Below are positions 18,611 through 35,035 of a stretch of 64,000 bases of DNA, one piece after another. The first letter of the stretch is position 1. Each line of letters opens with the position of its first letter. A program made the translations under genes and the position numbers. A model generated the notes under the pieces. The model was not told where the DNA came from. It was given only the letters and a program-made list of their open reading frames with translations, and did no database searches. This DNA is from an uncultured Flavobacteriaceae bacterium (GTDB lineage: Bacteria > Bacteroidota > Bacteroidia > Flavobacteriales > Flavobacteriaceae): assembly GCA_947494325.1 (NCBI GenBank), contig CANLUS010000006.1, positions 186,001-250,000 of the forward strand, written 5' to 3'.

Positions 18611-19744
18611 ATGAGACTAAGTGAAATTAAATCTTTTATTGGACGTAATTATCACAATAGATTGGGCTGGCGCTCAAATAGAAAAATTGTAGTAATAGAA
18701 TCTGATGATTGGGGGAGTATAAGGATGCCATCATTAAAAGTGTTTAGAGAATTAAAGAATCTTAATATTGATGTGAGTTCAGATGAATTTACCAGTTATG
18801 ATTCATTGGCGAGCTATAGTGATTTGGAAATACTGTTTGAAACGTTGTATAAACATAAGGATTCCGAGAACAACCCTGCTGTAATAACGGCAAATACAAT
18901 TGTAGCAAATCCCAATTTCGAAAAAATCAAAGAATCCGGTTACAGAAATTATTTTTATGAAAATTTCACAGAGACTTTAAAGAGATATTCTCAACATGCA
19001 TCTTCTTTTGAATTATGGAAACAGGGTATGAGTGAAGGGGTTTTTCACCCTCAATTGCATGGACGAGAACATGTAAACGTTGCATTGTGGCTTAATCATT
19101 TGAGAAGAGATGTGAAGTTTATTGAGGAAGCGTTCAAATTTGAAATGTTTGGTCTGTCTTCGAAATTATATTCGAAATCAGGAGAGAGCTATATGGCTGC
19201 TTTTGATTATGATGAGCAAGAAACATTAAATTTTATTCAACAGGCAATTAAAGATGCCCAGAATATTTTCGCTGAGATATTTGGCTATCAATCGAAATCT
19301 TTTATTGCTCCTAATTATATATGGAGTAACCAAATAGAAAATTTTTTAGCTGAAGTTGGAATCAAATATATTCAATCTTCGAGATATCAAATTTCTCCTA
19401 GATTTGAGAAGCGTAATGGAATCGCAAATTCGAAGCATAACTTGGGGGAAATAAATTCAAATAACCAAATATATTTAGTAAGAAATTGTATTTTTGAACC
19501 TTCGTTAAGGACAAGTATTAATCCAGTAGAAAATACATTGAAACAGGTAGAGACTTCTTTTTTTTGGAAAAAACCTGCCATTATATCGTCGCATAGATTA
19601 AATTATATTGGTTATATTAACCAAGAAAATAGAAATAAAAATATAAAATATTTGGACCTACTATTAAAGGGCATTTTAAAAAAGTGGCCTGATGTTCAAT
19701 TTATGACATCTGATATGCTAGGGCATACTATTGAATTCGATTGA
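18611..19744 (+). CDS. Polysaccharide (de)acetylase-like protein, copy 1
   Basis: A 377-residue protein with no signal peptide, so probably cytoplasmic. It has features of a NodB-like carbohydrate esterase: a beta-strand ending in VVIESDDWGS near residues 27-36 (candidate metal Asp), FHPQLHGREHVN near 148-159 (candidate metal His residues), IAPNYIWSN, and ISSHRLNYIGYI near the end. A paralogue with the same motif order is at 29288-30415. It likely removes or adds an acyl group on a sugar intermediate, but the substrate is unknown. It is followed after 3 bases by an asparagine-synthase-type gene. Confidence 0.72.
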   Translation: MRLSEIKSFIGRNYHNRLGWRSNRKIVVIESDDWGSIRMPSLKVFRELKNLNIDVSSDEFTSYDSLASYSDLEILFETLYKHKDSENNPAVITANTIVANPNFEKIKESGYRNYFYENFTETLKRYSQHASSFELWKQGMSEGVFHPQLHGREHVNVALWLNHLRRDVKFIEEAFKFEMFGLSSKLYSKSGESYMAAFDYDEQETLNFIQQAIKDAQNIFAEIFGYQSKSFIAPNYIWSNQIENFLAEVGIKYIQSSRYQISPRFEKRNGIANSKHNLGEINSNNQIYLVRNCIFEPSLRTSINPVENTLKQVETSFFWKKPAIISSHRLNYIGYINQENRNKNIKYLDLLLKGILKKWPDVQFMTSDMLGHTIEFD

Positions 19745-19747
19745 TAT

Positions 19748-21640
19748 ATGTGCGGAATAGCAGGGTTTATAGATTTTAAGGGAAGATCTAATCAAGAAAT
19801 GCTTGATTCAATGGTTACTACATTGAATCATAGAGGGCCAGATGATAGTGGGTCTGAATTATACTCATTCAACGATACCCAGATTGGCTTTGGTCATGCT
19901 AGATTAAGCATTATCGATTTAAGTATGGCTGGTCATCAGCCAATGCATTTTGAAGGGTTTTCTATTTTATTGAATGGAGAAATATATAATTACGAAGAAA
20001 TTCGAAAAGTTCTTGTAGAAAAAGGACATAAGTTCACTTCAACGTCAGATACAGAAGTTGTTTTGAAATCTTTTATTGAGTGGGGTAAAAGTTGTGTACA
20101 GCGATTTATAGGAATGTTCGTGTTCGTTATCTATAATAGAGAAGAGCAGAAAATTTACTTCTGCAGAGATAGAGCAGGTGTAAAGCCATGCTACATATAT
20201 AACAATAATGGATTGATATTGTTCGCATCAGAGCTTAAAGCTTTTCATGAACATCCTCATTTTATAAAGGAAATTGATCATTTTGCATTATATAACTATA
20301 TGCAATATGGATATGTAATTGAAAATGATTCTATTTTTAAATTTTGTAAAAAATTGCCCCCTTCAAATTGGCTTACTATAGATTTGGAATCAAAAGAAGT
20401 CGAGAATTATAAATATTGGGATCTACTTGAGCATTTTAAGAAGCCAATTTTGAAGTTGGATCCTGTTGAGATTACTGAAACTGTAGAGTCTGTTCTGAAA
20501 TCTTCGTGTAACTATAGAATGGTGGCTGACGTGCCGGTTGGAGTGTTCTTGAGCGGTGGGTATGATAGTTCGTTAGTAACTGCAGTTTTGCAAAAAGATA
20601 GAACGGAAAAAATTAAAACTTTTACCATTGGTTTTCCCGATGGAATAGATGAATCTGAGTATGCTCGAAAAGTAGCTGATCATTTAGGTACTGATCACAC
20701 AGTCTACAATTGTACACACAAAGACGCTCAAGAAATAATACCTGATTTACCGTATTATTATGATGAGCCTTTTGCCGATATATCTTCAATTCCGAGTATT
20801 TTAGTTAGTAGGTTGGCAAGAGAAAAGGTTACCGTAGCTTTATCCGCAGATGGAGGAGATGAATTGTTTGCAGGATATTCTTGGTACAGTAATTTTTATA
20901 AAAGACTCGGAGAAATTAATACTGTTCCAGAGAGGTTGAAAATGGCCTCTTCAATAGGGCTAAATATTGCTGAAAAAATTATCCCAAATGGATTTATCCA
21001 ATTAAATCATCGAGTGTTAGGACTAAGTGAAATTTTACGTTCAAAGAAAGACCAACGGCTAATTGAGTTGATGTACCATTCGAGGCGATTACCTAACGGT
21101 TTTAACAAGAGACTTTTCCTTGATATGAAAAGCTCAAAGCCTCAAATTTTTTCTAAATCATATGAAGGACTAAACTCAGAATTTGGATCGATGTTAGCTC
21201 TTGATTATCAAATGAACTTAACGGACTGTCTATTGGTCAAAGTTGATAGAGCAACAATGTCAACATCCTTAGAAGGTCGAGAACCCTTAATGGATCATAG
21301 ATTGGCAGAAACTGCTGCCGTACTGCCGATGGAATATAAATATGATGGGAGTACATACAAAAAAATTTTAAGGGACATAACTCATAAATATATACCTTCT
21401 GAAATTATGGAACGACCAAAAGTTGGATTTGATTTGCCAGTTTTTGATTACTTAAATAAAGAATTATCTTATTTAGTAGAAGAATATTTATCAGATAGTT
21501 CAATTAAGGAATCACAAATTTTCAATCCAGTTTTTATATCTCAAATAGTATCTAAGTTTAAAGAAGGAACGCTTTTATACAAAACCGTAATTTGGAGGGT
21601 TTTAATGTTTCAAATGTGGTATGCTAAATGGATGAAATAG
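19748..21640 (+). CDS. asnB: Asparagine synthase-type glutamine amidotransferase, copy 1
   Basis: A 630-residue class II glutamine-dependent ligase. Cys2 (MCGIAGF) is the glutaminase nucleophile; NHRGPDD, FGHARLSI and LNGEIYN complete the N-terminal domain. The synthetase domain has the PPi loop SGGYDSS near residues 268-274, then DGGDELFAGY. All catalytic elements look intact. In polysaccharide loci such proteins (for example WbpS in Pseudomonas aeruginosa O-antigen clusters) amidate uronic acids, so a sugar carboxylate such as GlcA or GalA made by the first two genes is a plausible acceptor. True asparagine synthesis cannot be excluded. A second copy lies at 26223-28103. Confidence 0.85.
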   Translation: MCGIAGFIDFKGRSNQEMLDSMVTTLNHRGPDDSGSELYSFNDTQIGFGHARLSIIDLSMAGHQPMHFEGFSILLNGEIYNYEEIRKVLVEKGHKFTSTSDTEVVLKSFIEWGKSCVQRFIGMFVFVIYNREEQKIYFCRDRAGVKPCYIYNNNGLILFASELKAFHEHPHFIKEIDHFALYNYMQYGYVIENDSIFKFCKKLPPSNWLTIDLESKEVENYKYWDLLEHFKKPILKLDPVEITETVESVLKSSCNYRMVADVPVGVFLSGGYDSSLVTAVLQKDRTEKIKTFTIGFPDGIDESEYARKVADHLGTDHTVYNCTHKDAQEIIPDLPYYYDEPFADISSIPSILVSRLAREKVTVALSADGGDELFAGYSWYSNFYKRLGEINTVPERLKMASSIGLNIAEKIIPNGFIQLNHRVLGLSEILRSKKDQRLIELMYHSRRLPNGFNKRLFLDMKSSKPQIFSKSYEGLNSEFGSMLALDYQMNLTDCLLVKVDRATMSTSLEGREPLMDHRLAETAAVLPMEYKYDGSTYKKILRDITHKYIPSEIMERPKVGFDLPVFDYLNKELSYLVEEYLSDSSIKESQIFNPVFISQIVSKFKEGTLLYKTVIWRVLMFQMWYAKWMK

Positions 21641-21670: not shown

Positions 21671-22573
21671 ATGAATTTACGATATGGCGCATTGTTTAAA
21701 GGAGTTAGAAAGTTAGCAAAATACTTTTTATCTTCTTTATATCCAGTTACAATAAGGATATTTCCTTTACCTAAAGTAAAGTCAATAGAAGAAACTTTAG
21801 ATAAGATTATAAGAGATAAATCGTCTATATCACGTTTTGGAGATGGTGAGTTTCTATATTTAATGGATAAACTAAATTTACCATTTCAAAAATATGATGC
21901 GAATTTAGCGGAAAGGATGAAGATGATTTTGAAATCTAAGCATTCTAATTGTTTAGTAGGGTTACCTATTGGATATTACTCGTTAGAAAATCTTCATAAA
22001 GAAAGTAAAAGAACTTGGAAATCTCAAGTTAGCTGGATTTACCCACGATTAAGAAAATATTTAGATTTAAATAAGACATATTACAACTCTAGCATGACAA
22101 GGGTCTATGCTCCTTATGAAGATAAAACATATAGTAAAGAGTACTTTAAAAAACTTATGAAAATATGGGAAAGTCGAGAAGTGCTTTTAATTGAAGGTGA
22201 AAAAAGTAGATTAGGAGTTGGGAATAATTTATTCAGTAAGGCAGTTAAACTCGAAAGAATTATTGCACCCATGCATCACGCTTTTGAAAGATATGAGGAT
22301 TTGTTTAACGCGTCACTCAAACATTCTAAAGATAAACTGATTTTAATTGCTTTAGGTCCAACAGCAACTGCCTTATCATTTGATTTGGCGCAGAAGGGAT
22401 ATCAGGCGATCGATATTGGAAACGTTGATATTGAGTATGAATGGTTTTTAAGAGGAGCCAAATCAAAGGTTAAAATTCAAGGAAAGTATACAAGTGAAGC
22501 AATTGGAGGTCGAGATGTCGAGGAAATTGTTGATGAGAAGTACGAAAATGAAATTATTGCTAGAATAATATAA
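21671..22573 (+). CDS. GT-D fold glycosyltransferase (DUF1792-like)
   Basis: A 300-residue protein resembling the GT-D (DUF1792) glycosyltransferases first described from streptococcal adhesin glycosylation. The diagnostic segment is SISRFGDGEFLYL near residues 51-63, with the metal-binding D-x-E in FGDGE. LVGLPIGYY, LLIEGEKSRLGVGNNLF and LIALGPTATALSFDLAQKGYQAIDIGNVDIEYEW follow in the family order. The sugar transferred is unknown. It begins 31 bases after the amidotransferase, and its stop lies only 9 bases before the ATG of the next, unusual gene. Confidence 0.82.
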   Translation: MNLRYGALFKGVRKLAKYFLSSLYPVTIRIFPLPKVKSIEETLDKIIRDKSSISRFGDGEFLYLMDKLNLPFQKYDANLAERMKMILKSKHSNCLVGLPIGYYSLENLHKESKRTWKSQVSWIYPRLRKYLDLNKTYYNSSMTRVYAPYEDKTYSKEYFKKLMKIWESREVLLIEGEKSRLGVGNNLFSKAVKLERIIAPMHHAFERYEDLFNASLKHSKDKLILIALGPTATALSFDLAQKGYQAIDIGNVDIEYEWFLRGAKSKVKIQGKYTSEAIGGRDVEEIVDEKYENEIIARII

Positions 22574-22582
22574 TTGTTTAGA

Positions 22583-24076
22583 ATGGATAAGGTATATAAA
22601 GAAATTTCGATTAGAGAAATGGAAGGAATAATTGAGCCGACAATTCATGATAGACTTTCAAAAGAATCCTACCAGATATTTAGGACTCAAGGGGTTAATT
22701 TGTTGACATATAGCAGATTCGATCTAGCATTCAAACTTTATTTTCTAGAAACGTTTAGTAAAAATAGTCAACATGCAGCTAAAGTCTACTTAGAACATAT
22801 AAGAGCATTTAGTTTTGGAAGTTTCAAAGAACCAAATAATGAAGATAAAAATAGTAAATCGAAGTTTATTGATACATTTTTGCAGTTATCCAATGATATT
22901 TCGAATATAGATTTTGACCCAAATAAATCCATACTCCCTTTATCGAAGAATGGCTTTATATTAAATGGAGCACATAGATTAGCATCAGCGATAAATAGTA
23001 ATAAAGAAGTATTTTACATAAATACTACTGATGAAGGTACTAGTTTTACATATAATTTTTTTTATGAAAGGAATGTATCAGAAACGTATTTAGATATGGC
23101 CGCAACAATGTTTGCGAAAAAAGATACTCATACTTTTATAGCATTGGTTTGGCCATCAGCAAAAAGTAAGGATACTGAAATAGAAAATATACTTGATAAG
23201 GTCGTTTATAAGAAAAATGTTTTTTTGAATTTGAACGGGGCCCATAATTTGATGTCTAAAGTGTATAAAAATGAAAAATGGTTGGGCACCATTGAAGATG
23301 ATTTTAAAGGTACCAAACCAAAAGTAATGGAATGCTTTAAAGATATCGATAATCCCTTGAGAGCTTATTTATTTCAAGCTGATACCTTGGAGGACGTTTT
23401 AAAAAAGAAAGATGATATTCGAGATGTTTTTAACATCGATAAGCATTCAATACATATAACAGATACACATGAAGAAGTAGTTGAGCTGTCGAAACTATTA
23501 TTTAATAATAACAGTATTCATTTTTTAAATAATGCCAAACCAAATACGTTTATTACTTTTCATAAAAAACTGGATAAATTTAAACGTTTTGTAAGTGCAA
23601 ATGAAATAAACGCTGAGGACATTATACTCGATTCAGGAATGGTACTGTCGTTATATGGGATCAGAAAGTCTGACGACATAGATTATATTATTAATGATAG
23701 GTATTCTATAACTTCAGATGATTCCGGTATAAATTCTCATAATTCTGAAATCAATTTCTATAACAAAGCATCAGACGAACTCTTGTATAATAGTGAAAAC
23801 TATTTTTATTTTAATGACATTAAATTCATATCATTTAATCAATTATATCTATTTAAGAAAAATCGAAATGGAGAAAAAGATAGAAATGATCTTTTGTTAA
23901 TGGACGCTGTATCAGAAAAAGATTCAAAAAAGATGAAATCGGCTAAAGTGAAACAAAAAATGTTCTATCTAAAGCATAGGATAAAATATGCCCCTATTAT
24001 TTTGTCTATTAAATTATTAAAAAAAATAGGAATGTATGATTCAATTCGCCAAATCTATCACAGGCTTAAAAACTAA
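22583..24076 (+). CDS. Three-part protein: ParB/sulfiredoxin-like motif, middle region, nucleotidyltransferase-like C-terminus
   Basis: A 497-residue protein that I do not recognise as any named enzyme. Residues about 124-137 read GFILNGAHRLASAI, a DGxHR-like motif of the ParB/sulfiredoxin/serine-kinase fold. Residues about 180-340 form a middle region with IRDVFNIDKHSIHITDTHEE. Residues about 347-440 have GMVLSLYGIRKSDDIDYI, with paired acids as in minimal nucleotidyltransferases, then KDRNDLLLM, resembling the end of such domains. No signal peptide or membrane segment. I chose the ATG at 22583; a TTG three codons earlier is possible. Location beside a GT-D transferase suggests it makes or attaches a phosphorylated or nucleotidylated substituent. 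Function is undetermined. Confidence 0.7.
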   Translation: MDKVYKEISIREMEGIIEPTIHDRLSKESYQIFRTQGVNLLTYSRFDLAFKLYFLETFSKNSQHAAKVYLEHIRAFSFGSFKEPNNEDKNSKSKFIDTFLQLSNDISNIDFDPNKSILPLSKNGFILNGAHRLASAINSNKEVFYINTTDEGTSFTYNFFYERNVSETYLDMAATMFAKKDTHTFIALVWPSAKSKDTEIENILDKVVYKKNVFLNLNGAHNLMSKVYKNEKWLGTIEDDFKGTKPKVMECFKDIDNPLRAYLFQADTLEDVLKKKDDIRDVFNIDKHSIHITDTHEEVVELSKLLFNNNSIHFLNNAKPNTFITFHKKLDKFKRFVSANEINAEDIILDSGMVLSLYGIRKSDDIDYIINDRYSITSDDSGINSHNSEINFYNKASDELLYNSENYFYFNDIKFISFNQLYLFKKNRNGEKDRNDLLLMDAVSEKDSKKMKSAKVKQKMFYLKHRIKYAPIILSIKLLKKIGMYDSIRQIYHRLKN

Positions 24077-26222: not shown

Positions 26223-28103
26223 ATGTGTGGTATAGTTGGGATTATACAAAAAGATAAACCGGTTGATTTTTCAACCCTAGAAGACATGTGCAATTCCTTG
26301 TCGTTAAGAGGACCAGATGCTGGTAATTTATGGATAAAAGACAATATTGGTTTAGGACACAGAAGACTTTCCATAATTGATTTAGAGACGGGTGATCAAC
26401 CCATGATGACAGAAGATAAAAACCTTATTATTGTATATAATGGGGAGGTTTATAACTTTAAAGAACTGCGTGAAGAGCTAATTAAAGCAGGTTACAATTT
26501 TACAACTAGTAGTGATACCGAAGTGGTATTGAAGGGATACCTACATTTTGGCATCGACAAGCTTCTTTTGCGCTTAGAAGGAATGTTTGCTTTCGCTCTT
26601 TATGATAAGTTAAAAGAGGAAGCTTTTATAGTAAGGGATAAATTCGGAGAAAAACCCCTTTATTATTGTGAAGAGAATAATTCATTGCAATTTGCTTCGG
26701 AATTAAAAGCTTTGAAATCAAAATTTAATAAAAATGAAATAGATGAAATAGGTTTGAATTTTTTTCTTTCTCTATCATACATTCCAGCACCTTACACGAT
26801 CTATAAGGGTATAAAAAAGCTCAAGCCCGGGAATTACCTTCATATTAATAAAAATAAGGAAGTAAAAAGTTTTGAATATTATAATTTACAAAAGCAATTA
26901 AAGGATTATATTCCAGAATCGGATTTTGATAACGCCTCTCGAAAACTAAATAAATTGCTTAGCGATTCAGTAAAGAAGAGAATGGTATCAGATGTGCCTG
27001 TTGGAGCATTTTTAAGTGGAGGTATTGATTCGAGTATTGTAAGTTCCTTAATGGCAAATCATTCGAATGATCCAATAAATACATTCTCAATTGGGTTTAA
27101 TGAAAAAGCGTATGATGAGAGCCAAAGGGCCCAGATTATAGCAGATAGAATAAAATCTAATCATAAGACACATTTTTTAGATTATAAAGATGTGGTCGAG
27201 TTAGTTGACGAAATTGTTTTATATTTCGATGAACCTTTCGGTGATTCTTCTGCGTTGCCTTCTTACTATGTAGCGAAGCTGGCACGAGAGTCAGTTAAGG
27301 TGGTTTTAACTGGGGATGCGGCCGATGAATTATTTGGAGGTTACGAAAAATACCTAAGCCAGTATTATATTTCTAAGTTTAAGAAATTACCAAAATTTTC
27401 TCAAAAACTGTTTAAAAGTATCATCCAAATAATTCCTCATACAAAGATCACCAATTCGCTGTTGAGGAAAATAAAAAAAGTTATAAATAATGCCGAAAAG
27501 TCAGAGTTTGATGTACATTATAACATGATGTGTTTAGGCTTTAATGATCTTGAGAGAAATGCTATTCTGAAGAATAATCTATACGTAGATAACATTAAAA
27601 GCGAGGTAAACGAAACCTATAAATCTTTTAAGTCCTCTACGGTAATGGAGAAAGGTTTTTATACTGATTTGAAATTTGTCTTAGAAGGAGATATGCTTAC
27701 GAAAGTCGATAGAGTGTGCATGATGAATTCATTGGAAGCTAGGGTTCCTTTTTTAGACTCTAGGATAGTAGAATTGGCTTATAATATTCCGCTAAGCTTT
27801 AAAATTAAAGGAAGAAATAAAAAATATATTCTGAAAGAAACTTTCCGTAACCTGTTGCCTCCGGCAACGGTAAATTTCAGAAAAAAAGGGTTTGGTGTAC
27901 CTGTCGATTCGTGGTTTAAAAATGAGTTGAGAAATGAAATAAGTTCATTACTATCAAAAGAAGTGATTATTGAACAAGGAATTTTTAATTATGAAGAAGT
28001 TAAGAAACTTTTAGATGAACACCTTGATGAAAAAGAAAACCATAAAGGGAAATTATGGAATTTATTTGTTTTCCAGAAATGGTATTTGAATAAGATTTCA
28101 TGA
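26223..28103 (+). CDS. asnB: Asparagine synthase-type glutamine amidotransferase, copy 2
   Basis: A 626-residue protein with the same architecture as the copy at 19748-21640. Cys2 (MCGIVGI), SLRGPDAG, LGHRRLSI and YNGEVYN make an intact glutaminase domain; SGGIDSS near residues 265-271 and TGDAADELFGGYEKY form the ATP-dependent ligase site. The copies differ through much of the synthetase domain, so this is an older duplication or separate acquisition rather than a recent one. A carbohydrate amidotransferase role is inferred from the locus. It overlaps the next glycosyltransferase gene by 4 bases and stands two genes upstream of the second deacetylase-like copy. Confidence 0.85.
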   Translation: MCGIVGIIQKDKPVDFSTLEDMCNSLSLRGPDAGNLWIKDNIGLGHRRLSIIDLETGDQPMMTEDKNLIIVYNGEVYNFKELREELIKAGYNFTTSSDTEVVLKGYLHFGIDKLLLRLEGMFAFALYDKLKEEAFIVRDKFGEKPLYYCEENNSLQFASELKALKSKFNKNEIDEIGLNFFLSLSYIPAPYTIYKGIKKLKPGNYLHINKNKEVKSFEYYNLQKQLKDYIPESDFDNASRKLNKLLSDSVKKRMVSDVPVGAFLSGGIDSSIVSSLMANHSNDPINTFSIGFNEKAYDESQRAQIIADRIKSNHKTHFLDYKDVVELVDEIVLYFDEPFGDSSALPSYYVAKLARESVKVVLTGDAADELFGGYEKYLSQYYISKFKKLPKFSQKLFKSIIQIIPHTKITNSLLRKIKKVINNAEKSEFDVHYNMMCLGFNDLERNAILKNNLYVDNIKSEVNETYKSFKSSTVMEKGFYTDLKFVLEGDMLTKVDRVCMMNSLEARVPFLDSRIVELAYNIPLSFKIKGRNKKYILKETFRNLLPPATVNFRKKGFGVPVDSWFKNELRNEISSLLSKEVIIEQGIFNYEEVKKLLDEHLDEKENHKGKLWNLFVFQKWYLNKIS

Positions 28104-29287: not shown

Positions 29288-30415
29288 ATGAATCTTTTTG
29301 AATTAAAACGAACATTAAATCTGACCATTAAAAATCAGTTCGGATGGAAGACAAAAAGAAAAATTGTCGTTTTTTCTGTTGATGATTATGGAAATGTAAG
29401 AATGGGTTCGAAAGAAGCCAGAAGACAGATGCAGTTGGAGGGTCTAGATACTGAATCCAATAGATTTGATAAATTAGACGCGCTCGAAGATGCTGAGGAT
29501 TTAGAACAACTTTATGACAGTTTATCTTCTGTTAAGGATAAAAACGGAAAATCTGCAATTTTCACTACGTTTTCGCTCCCAGCGAATCCTAATTTCGAAA
29601 AAATTATAGCGTCTAATTATTCTGAATATTTTTTTGAAACTCTATCAGAGACCCACCAAAAGATTAAAGGTTATGAAAATGTTTTAGAATTAATTCATGA
29701 AGGGGTAGAAAAAAAATTGATTTTTCCGGAATTCCATGGAAGAGAACATTTAAATATTAAAACTTTCTTAGAGTTATTGAGGAAAAAAGATAAAGAGATT
29801 TTGTGCGCTATTGATAATAAGTCATATGCATCTATATCTTCGAAACCTTTTCCAAATATAAGTTATGCATCGGCTTTTGGATTCGAATCATTTTCTGAAG
29901 TTGAAAATCATAAAAAAATACTTGTTGATGGTTTGAATTTGTTCGAGGAAGTATATGGTTATAGAGCAAGACATTTTACAGCTCCAGAAACACATGCACA
30001 TGGAAGTTTAGAAGAACTACTGCAGAAGGAAGGTATTGATTTTATAGATACAGATTTCATTAAAAGAGAACATCAAGGAGAAGGAACGTATAAGAAATCC
30101 TTTAATTATCTCGGAAAGAAGAATAAATTTAAGCAGCGGTATATTCTACGAAATTGTGTTTATGAACCGTTATTAATGCCCAATTTAAATTGGGAAGATT
30201 ATTGTATGAAACAGATTGAAATTGCCTTTAAATTCAATAAACCAGCCAATATAAGTTCGCATAGAGTAAATTTCAGTGGGCATATTGAGTCAAGTAATAG
30301 AGATAAAGGATTAAAAGGACTGAGAGGTCTTTTAAAGAAAATAGTTGAAAAATGGCCTGAAGTTGAGTTTATGACTACTCGAGAGGTTGGAGATTTAATG
30401 AACCAACAAAAATAA
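29288..30415 (+). CDS. Polysaccharide (de)acetylase-like protein, copy 2
   Basis: A 375-residue paralogue of the protein at 18611-19744 with the same length and motif order: VVFSVDDYGNVRMGS near residues 28-42, LPANPNFEKI, FPEFHGREHLN near 147-157, FTAPETHAHGS, and ISSHRVNFSGHI. The signature DDWGS of copy 1 is DDYGN here, so metal-site surroundings differ slightly. No signal peptide, implying action on cytoplasmic sugar nucleotides or lipid-linked intermediates. It starts the base after the GT4 stop codon and ends one base before the initiating sugar transferase gene. Confidence 0.72.
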   Translation: MNLFELKRTLNLTIKNQFGWKTKRKIVVFSVDDYGNVRMGSKEARRQMQLEGLDTESNRFDKLDALEDAEDLEQLYDSLSSVKDKNGKSAIFTTFSLPANPNFEKIIASNYSEYFFETLSETHQKIKGYENVLELIHEGVEKKLIFPEFHGREHLNIKTFLELLRKKDKEILCAIDNKSYASISSKPFPNISYASAFGFESFSEVENHKKILVDGLNLFEEVYGYRARHFTAPETHAHGSLEELLQKEGIDFIDTDFIKREHQGEGTYKKSFNYLGKKNKFKQRYILRNCVYEPLLMPNLNWEDYCMKQIEIAFKFNKPANISSHRVNFSGHIESSNRDKGLKGLRGLLKKIVEKWPEVEFMTTREVGDLMNQQK

Positions 30416-34117: not shown

Positions 34118-35035
34118 ATGAGTAAATTTCTTTTAAGAATTTTCATTTTAATAGCTATGGTCTATTGTTGTGGAGAAATTATTGTTCGAGTTTATAGACT
34201 CACTCCGGATATCCCGAGACGACTTATAGATAATTCTGGTATTCAACGGTATAAACCTGGTCAATCAGGTTATTATGCGAAATCAGATCATAAATGGAAT
34301 GTAAATGATTTTGGATGGCTGGGAGTTGCAGAGATCAATTATGATAAAACCATTGGGATAATCGGTGATTCATATATCGAAAATATCATGAATCCAATTG
34401 ATTGTAATCAAGGTACTCAATTGAAACAATATGTTGACAATGTTGGCTTTTTCGAAGCAGGGCGATCGGGAGTTTCATTTATAGAAGCTATGGAAATTAC
34501 AAAAATGTTGGATACTCTGATTAGTACTGAGTACAATTTGATATATGTTAGTTCGAATGACTTTTACGAAAGTTTCTCGAGTAATAAAAGATACAAAGAT
34601 CGGATCCAAGTAGATTTACAGAAAGATTCTATTTTAAAAGCTAAAATGAAGGCTCCGAAACTTAAAAATTTGATTTATAACTTTAAGTTAATTTATTATT
34701 TGTATTTGAGATTTCCACTGTTTGTAAATCAGGAGAATAAGAATGTTATTCAGACAACTAAAGTAAATAATGGTTTTGATTTTGTAAAATTTAGTGGTTT
34801 ATTTGAATTCTGTAAGAAGAATTATAATTTTGAGAAGAACATATTGGTTTTTCATCCAGGTACAGAAGAAGAAATAATTGAGATTTCAAAAAATAATGGA
34901 TTTAAAGTCATTGAATTAAATTCAGAAGGCGATAAGAGTTGGGTTTTAGGGAAACATGAAGGGCATTGGTCTTGTTATGGACATACTCAGGTTGCAAAAC
35001 AGGTGCAAGCTTATCTGAAACCACTAATTAAATAA
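34118..35035 (+). CDS. SGNH/AlgJ-AlgX-like O-acetyltransferase partner
   Basis: A 305-residue protein with one N-terminal membrane anchor (residues about 5-20) and a domain predicted to face the periplasm. The SGNH block I is GIIGDSYIE with Ser at about 85, and the block V-type end is HEGHWSCYGH near residues 281-290. These match the acetyl-transfer partners that take acetyl groups from an MBOAT protein and place them on a glycan. It directly follows the MBOAT gene, supporting a two-part O-acetylation module. A plain esterase role is less likely given that pairing. Confidence 0.8.
   Translation: MSKFLLRIFILIAMVYCCGEIIVRVYRLTPDIPRRLIDNSGIQRYKPGQSGYYAKSDHKWNVNDFGWLGVAEINYDKTIGIIGDSYIENIMNPIDCNQGTQLKQYVDNVGFFEAGRSGVSFIEAMEITKMLDTLISTEYNLIYVSSNDFYESFSSNKRYKDRIQVDLQKDSILKAKMKAPKLKNLIYNFKLIYYLYLRFPLFVNQENKNVIQTTKVNNGFDFVKFSGLFEFCKKNYNFEKNILVFHPGTEEEIIEISKNNGFKVIELNSEGDKSWVLGKHEGHWSCYGHTQVAKQVQAYLKPLIK

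Follow-up and report, generated by a model that had tools for sequence, protein, structure and literature searches.

What does a protein of no named family do inside a polysaccharide locus? The question is raised by the gene at positions 22583-24076 (forward strand, as are its parts and the gene before it) of the window, by which we mean the whole 64,000-nucleotide stretch of an uncultured Flavobacteriaceae genome analysed here. The window translation gives a frame that is open from ATG to stop over 497 codons, with an in-frame TTG at 22574 as an alternative start, while the one reverse frame that was read is closed by many stops; the gene is present in one copy in the 3.64-Mb genome. It is a real gene and, as a preliminary description had stated, starts nine bases after a GT-D glycosyltransferase gene of the SP_1767 family (21671-22573; PF08759, E 3.4e-82), which ends at 22573. 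The surroundings form a polysaccharide cluster. It holds a flippase-like gene (13731) and an EpsG family gene (17374), whose product we take, by its analogy to Wzy, to be a polymerase. Also present are GT4 and GT2 genes, genes for an initiating sugar transferase (30417) and for an ATP-grasp protein of the sugar-transfer type (31025), two asparagine-synthase-like amidotransferases, a DegT aminotransferase and acyltransferases of the PglD and MBOAT types. The two amidotransferases lie one on each side of the gene (19748-21640 and 26223-28103), and the top model of both is the XrtA/PEP-CTERM amidotransferase, with a score under its cut-off. A glycoside hydrolase family 57-like protein is encoded at 18611-19744 (28.4 bits, cut-off 21.2), and two further products of the same locus, from 29288-30415 (375 aa) and 34118-35035 (305 aa), have no Pfam match at E 0.001.

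Searches with family models returned little. The window protein has no Pfam match above cut-off and no NCBIfam match, its best match in PHROGs has an E value of 0.056, and its comparison with PDB sequences gave nothing usable; the whole-family profile and the three per-domain profiles likewise found no significant relative among PDB sequences. In the first family set, of 24 members, just one Pfam match has E < 0.001. It links a single protein to a hexapeptide family, and we take it as the acyltransferase end of the Eubacterium protein described below. Four PHROG families each match one member (E 2.8e-6 to 4.7e-11). The NDK model PF00334 does not match the window protein and reaches E 0.081 in the best of the 24 members; the ParB model PF02195 matches none of them at E up to 1; the DUF6036 and NTP_transf_5 models give no match above cut-off for the window protein, DUF6036 reaching E 0.054 in one of the 24 members. 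When the PDB was searched with Foldseek, using the whole model or the front domain, no match passed E 0.001. The names that we use for the three parts are thus putative, as they rest on fold and weak profile comparison. Among the open-licence full texts searched, no paper was recognisable as describing the three-part family, and a 2025 survey of ParB-fold fusions nowhere mentions polysaccharide, nucleotidyltransferase or nucleoside diphosphate in its main text (PMC12704722). Each of the three parts resembles a known fold; their combination is new.

The family extends well beyond its home genome, with relatives at 23 other bacterial loci from five phyla and at 68 loci in uncultivated viruses. 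Plasmid records yielded copies from Ilyobacter (43%) and Jannaschia and a truncated one from Paracoccus. A scan of one genome per species, covering 84,980 species, added 20 loci in Pseudomonadota, Campylobacterota, Bacteroidota and Bacillota, with Fusobacteriota (Ilyobacter) as the fifth phylum. Close to home the gene is rare, being found in 1 of 60 and 1 of 395 genomes, its own genome both times. A first scan of viral contigs with a three-row profile found none; later scans, with domain profiles and then with a viral-row profile, gave 1, 5 and 68 loci, the first six lying within the 68. Of these, 64 are complete and 39 are non-redundant at 95%. In phage records the module was not found with the window protein, L111 or L199 as queries. 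A GT2-fused viral protein (L108) matched 44 records, the best 30 of the 44 being confined to its residues 1-245, and a second one (L152) matched a single record over residues 9-236, so that no module copy was seen among the matches listed for any of the five queries. Searching BFVD with the whole 497-residue model returned six predicted giant-virus proteins (one from Mimivirus LCMiAC01, three from Yasminevirus and one each from Catovirus and Satyrvirus) over 313-352 alignment columns of unspecified domain (E 1.2e-14 to 1.7e-4); two of the six are named glycosyltransferase. In a tree of the family the viral rows are grouped (100/99), and the Fusobacteriota row falls together with those of Colwellia, Marinomonas and a flavobacterium (100/100), a grouping compatible with horizontal transfer; good support is confined to 7 of the 24 inner branches, and four rows stand out as very long.

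Conservation was counted in a set of 62 non-redundant sequences, 23 bacterial and 39 viral. The truncated Paracoccus copy (L004), with its degenerate middle, was left out of this set and of an earlier one of 27 rows. The 62 rows also exclude three frames cut by contig ends (L201-L203), 25 viral rows that are more than 95% alike and L173, which has two stops in the matched stretch, an open 388-aa frame being present from 4025; contigs that appear both as L107-L112 and among the 68 viral loci were counted once. Seventeen positions are invariant: R45, D47, K51, Y69, E83, K89, H131, R132, Y228, W233, K247, C251, K276, R280, H291, D294 and R361. For the first two domains a second aligner gave the same invariant positions with one exception, E83, at 61/62; this residue was found in 24/27 rows of the smaller alignment and in 62/62 and 61/62 in the two larger ones. 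The value of 62/62 for R361 includes a chance alignment in L022 and L023, both of which are without the third domain, and H291 becomes 62/63 once the truncated Paracoccus copy is counted. The segments singled out in the preliminary description, ILNGAHRLASAI (residues 126-137), HSIHITDTHEE (288-298), GIRKSDDIDYI (359-369) and KDRNDLLLM (432-440), are all present, and their conservation is far beyond chance, as H131, R132, H291 and D294 show. The motif residues are not lost in full-length relatives, nor did the domain predictions return unrelated folds.

AlphaFold2 predicts the whole protein with a pLDDT of 91.8 and a pTM of 0.88, and residues 1-180 modelled separately reach a pLDDT of 93.3. The N-terminal domain (residues 1-178; 22583-23116) was compared with ParB N-terminal profiles and scored 23.2, 22.5 and 21.5, with no shuffle as good in 100, 60 and 60 trials. 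In the profile alignment its NGAHR segment (residues 128-132; 22964-22978) falls on the GERR of ParB, where we place the GxxR phosphate motif (Box II) of the ParB fold. Foldseek of this domain against the PDB gave nothing confident, the ParB from Caulobacter coming third (probability 0.12), and the BFVD search with the whole model returned several ParB-like viral proteins (probability 0.09-0.85). We consider the assignment to the ParB/sulfiredoxin/SerK group, which had been suggested before, to be of moderate strength. The DGxHR motif on which that suggestion was built is right in its His-Arg; its usual form in the family, however, is N-G-[ASG]-H-R, with Asn in 58 and Asp in 4 of the 62 rows and G129 in 58. 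A helical stretch (residues 47-77) carries the invariant D47, K51 and Y69, with R45 just ahead of it. Glu83 (22829-22831) is a candidate catalytic acid/base and presumably equivalent to the SerK glutamate. Box II is used here as defined in section 9 of the ParB-fold survey (PMC12704722).

The middle part (residues 180-312; 23120-23518) is the best conserved of the three, with a mean column identity of 54% vs 45% and 44%. The preliminary description had noticed it as conserved and had pointed to the HSIHITDTHEE segment; it overlooked the predicted fold, which is NDK-like. In the AlphaFold2 model strands and helices follow the order b-a-b-a-a-b-a-b-a, which we take to be the NDK order. NDKs carry the pattern IR..F..NxxHGSD, and the segment IRDVF-NIDKHSIHITDT of the middle resembles it; from this segment an NDK identity was suspected before the structure search gave its result. 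In that search, by Foldseek against the PDB, ranks 1-5 are all NDKs (probability 0.98-1.00, E 0.03-0.27), and rank 6 has a probability of 0.11. Scores against NDK profiles rose with growing row number from 16.8 to 21.5 and 25.9, compared to 8.7-16.0 for control profile comparisons of wrong domains; NDK column shuffles reached the score in 5/100, 0/60 and 0/60 cases, with maxima of 28.7, 20.6 and 24.3. Since shuffles matched the first score, the sequence evidence for an NDK identity is weak when taken alone. Model and alignments together indicate an NDK fold for the middle, with the histidine kept in register: His291, within SIHITDT (residues 289-295; 23447-23467), aligns with the NDK phospho-histidine in every profile comparison.

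The catalytic lysine of NDKs is replaced. At its place, where KPD becomes WPS in the profile alignment, the window protein has Trp190 (23150-23152), and the position holds Trp in 23/23 bacterial and Phe in 39/39 viral rows. An ordinary NDK is therefore unlikely, and ordinary NTP-to-His transfer may be impossible in such a pocket. The similarity of the folds to those families could still mean that a housekeeping NDK or a chromosome-partition ParB has been misplaced in the locus, an explanation that we find hardly credible and reject on the loss of the lysine, the missing Pfam matches (no PF02195 match, and for PF00334 none better than 0.081, among 24 members) and the separate genomic copies. 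A separate NDK is encoded in the same genome, which has ParB_N matches elsewhere too, and in 13 of the 15 searched host genomes of relatives.

The C-terminal part (residues 326-445; 23558-23917) matches profiles of DUF6036 (28-30) and NTP_transf_5 (31-33), and no shuffle was as good, so that the nucleotidyltransferase-like end proposed earlier finds support. It carries DDID (residues 364-367; 23672-23683), a DxD motif expected to bind metal, and KDRND (residues 432-436; 23876-23890), a second conserved acidic motif. Of the 60 rows having the third domain, all but L021, which is without both residues, carry D365 and D367 (59/60 for each). With the largest row set NTP_transf_5 is the best match (33.4, 0/60 shuffles), and we take PsmN to be of this kind. 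This suggests another division of labour, in which the end would add a sugar, as has been suggested for PsmN, to a phosphorylated acceptor made by the first two domains. PsmN installs a hexose on phosphoserine according to the part of a review cited here, which also leaves that result open to another reading (PMC9266682), and the DUF6036 match, from a profile of ten rows of which one (L077) is apparently in the wrong frame, is nearly as good (29.9, 0/60 shuffles). We regard a sugar-adding end as quite improbable.

The invariant residues are nearly all polar or charged. That bacteria of five phyla and viruses share them speaks for functioning active sites, though it does not prove catalysis. 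This bears on the idea that the protein is a nucleotide-sensing regulator or scaffold of a glycosyltransferase complex, whose ParB-like and NDK-like folds bind nucleotides and whose nucleotidyltransferase part is dead or regulatory. ParB-fold domains are known NTP switches, as the survey describes in the part cited (PMC12704722), and both the missing NDK lysine and the loss of the DxD in L021 would suit such a role. The polar invariants and the nearly complete DxD, however, look like those of working sites, and a distribution over five phyla and viruses would suit a self-contained enzyme better. A regulator is accordingly rather improbable in our view.

If the protein is an enzyme, its genomic surroundings place it in glycan assembly. 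Glycan genes adjoin the gene in all 23 other bacterial loci, as judged from Pfam matches, from annotation or from resemblance to a scanned gene, which bears out the glycan setting first proposed for the window. With the chosen starts, 17 of the 24 bacterial loci show an overlap between the gene and the glycosyltransferase or Wzx-like gene ahead of it, of 4-14 bases in L002, L003, L005-L016, L018 and L020 and of 23 bases in L004; there are gaps instead in the window (nine bases) and in L021-L023 (20-73), and L017, L019 and L024 have no clear spacing to the preceding gene. The neighbours of L003 and L004 were taken from annotation, and for L019 the scripted calls gave overlapping false frames. 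Among ten scanned preceding genes there are three Wzx-like, two GT10, two GT2, one GT1_2 type, one GT4 type and one unrecognised gene. Apart from the module itself, no neighbour family is common to all bacterial loci, either by clustering (23 loci; GT2 in 14, initiating sugar transferase in 12) or by phmmer (22 loci; GT4-type in 17, GT2 in 14, initiating transferase in 11). A conserved partner gene was accordingly rejected as a clue to the substrate. The ATP-grasp gene of the home locus recurs in 1 of the 22 compared neighbourhoods, and a sugar-transfer ATP-grasp gene is annotated near L004. Across the bacterial neighbourhoods there is no conserved donor-making or dedicated transferase partner. 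The lack of a recurring dedicated transferase suggests that the protein completes its own reaction or pairs with the adjacent glycosyltransferase.

A homologue of a T4-type translation repressor and one of a clamp-loader subunit are encoded 1-3 genes upstream in 4 of 47 viral neighbourhoods (L145, L167, L169 and L198). Around other viral copies the genes scanned comprise glycosyltransferases, methyltransferases and a sugar epimerase, along with a weak match to a sulfotransferase. Three protein families, found in 20, 29 and 26 of the 47, accompany the form of the module that is commonest in viruses; the proteins that represent them (L184:3254-3985, L190:4335-5231 and L188:6659-7231) have neither a Pfam nor a PHROG match.

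The architecture was followed in 6,602 stop-to-stop frames from 205 loci, redundant ones included. The order front-middle-end occurs in 102 frames and front-middle in four, of which L201 and L203 are cut by contig ends and L022 and L023 are not; the L202 frame is cut at its start, and L004 has the front alone. In a Eubacterium MAG (L022:9935-11590) a hexapeptide-type acyltransferase end takes the place of the nucleotidyltransferase in one open frame, a single instance. A viral contig (L153:3995-6097, the same as L154) encodes front, NDK-like and nucleotidyltransferase-like parts followed by a second, diverged NDK-nucleotidyltransferase pair with the motifs FHVSD and YGIRDTSDVD and without a ParB-like front. 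On the plasmid of Paracoccus alcaliphilus (L004:7998-8903) the front is intact, the middle is shortened, and the histidine motif and nucleotidyltransferase part are lost. The natural variants L022, L023 and L153 point to the NDK-like part as the putative core. A GT2-type domain precedes the module in six viral proteins of the non-redundant 39 (L139, L142, L143, L149, L151 and L152). Compared with the extension of L142, those of the other five give E values of 7e-53 or better, and Pfam confirms GT2 in all three that were scanned (L108, which equals L142, L149 and L152). The 946-residue protein L149 (2402-5242; L150 and L159 are alike) has its GT2 domain at residues 293-426, then the module, and about 290 N-terminal residues that match no Pfam family at E 0.01.

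These fusions are relevant to the view taken in the preliminary description, namely that the protein makes a soluble donor: a SerK-like kinase would phosphorylate a small alcohol or sugar, and the nucleotidyltransferase-like part would nucleotidylate the product to an NDP-activated donor for a transferase of the locus. Kinase-like and nucleotidyltransferase-like parts do occur in one chain, fusion to GT2 could couple donor synthesis with transfer, and SerK, a ParB-annotated protein that is a free-serine kinase, sets a precedent in the part of the source cited (PMC5120207). A special donor, however, should bring along a special transferase that travels with it, and none recurs in all loci; moreover, L022 and L023 do without the nucleotidyltransferase part. 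We consider a donor-maker unlikely, yet deserving of weight.

We tentatively favour a glycan-associated phosphoryl or nucleotidyl transferase that would add a decoration to a surface polysaccharide or to the lipid-linked precursor, giving this reading somewhat less than even chances. It draws on the polar invariants, the predicted NDK fold with its histidine in register and the DxD, as well as on the glycan neighbours, gene overlaps, GT2 fusions and natural variants. The ParB/SerK-like front would bind a nucleotide via NG-HR and, with Glu83, remove or pass on a phosphate. In the middle, His291 may carry the phosphoryl (or nucleotidyl) group or hold it in position. The pocket would be altered, with the NDK lysine gone and with Arg280, Lys276 and Lys247, assumed to lie around His291, retained. 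The nucleotidyltransferase-like end, which can be lost or replaced, would complete a phosphodiester or a nucleotide-activated product, and the glycosyltransferase encoded upstream or fused would place the sugar that gets decorated. A precedent is found in PsmK/PsmN, where a kinase and then a nucleotidyltransferase homologue lead to a phosphate-linked sugar, as described in the cited part of the review (PMC9266682). Against this reading count the loss of the NDK lysine in all rows, the lack of a conserved partner, the missing DxD of L021 and the missing histidine and nucleotidyltransferase part of L004. Overall, the interpretation offered in the preliminary description is supported in part, for the three parts and for the glycan setting; it missed the NDK-like fold of the middle and the GT2-fused viral relatives.

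A bolder form of the favoured reading, possible though rather doubtful, is a new enzyme class, in which one polypeptide would combine a kinase-like site of ParB fold, a histidine site in an NDK fold without the lysine and a nucleotidyltransferase site to build and transfer a phosphate-linked decoration of a growing glycan. It would occur in five phyla, in phages, some near T4-type genes, and by predicted structure in giant viruses, and in some viruses it would be fused to the glycosyltransferase making its acceptor. Capsules and O-antigens commonly bear substituents with phosphate, and if a glycan-decorating transferase is the true reading, the family would represent a new route to them. It supplies named candidate active-site residues and several named strains. 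A predicted NDK fold that has kept the histidine and lost the lysine probably serves a different chemistry, and the frequency of the family in uncultivated viral contigs, in part fused to glycosyltransferases, points to glycan modification carried by the viruses themselves.

The comparison with known systems shows where each part departs from its nearest kin. With the ParB-fold NTP binders and kinases (ParB, SerK, SbnI and sulfiredoxin; PF02195) the front shares the succession of helix, strand, GxHR, helix and strand, in register with the ParB profiles, as well as the GxxR phosphate motif and an acidic residue ahead of the helix. It differs in the helical stretch with its invariant D-K-Y and, from ParB, in being without a recognisable DNA-binding part; it also lies under Pfam detection and has no strong PDB structural match, and its likeness to SerK and SbnI is a presumed one. 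With NDK (PF00334) the middle shares the predicted fold, the catalytic histidine in register followed by [TNS]-D, and the preceding IR..F segment. In contrast to NDK, Lys is found in 0/62 rows at the lysine position, NxxHGSD becomes xSIH-I-[TNS]-D, the stretch from helix 3 to the IR segment is shorter in the profile alignments, and the part sits inside a three-domain chain, again under Pfam detection. The end agrees with DUF6036 and NTP_transf_5 (PF19502, PF14907) in G...YGhR...DhD, which is in register in both profile alignments, and with DUF6036 also in the late K..R..KD..D motif; unlike them it is the third domain of a longer chain, and it is missing from L022 and L023. The LicD-type phosphotransferases are not known to carry the other two domains. 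If our reading holds, they would be like the family in having a nucleotidyltransferase-like fold that decorates glycans via phosphate.
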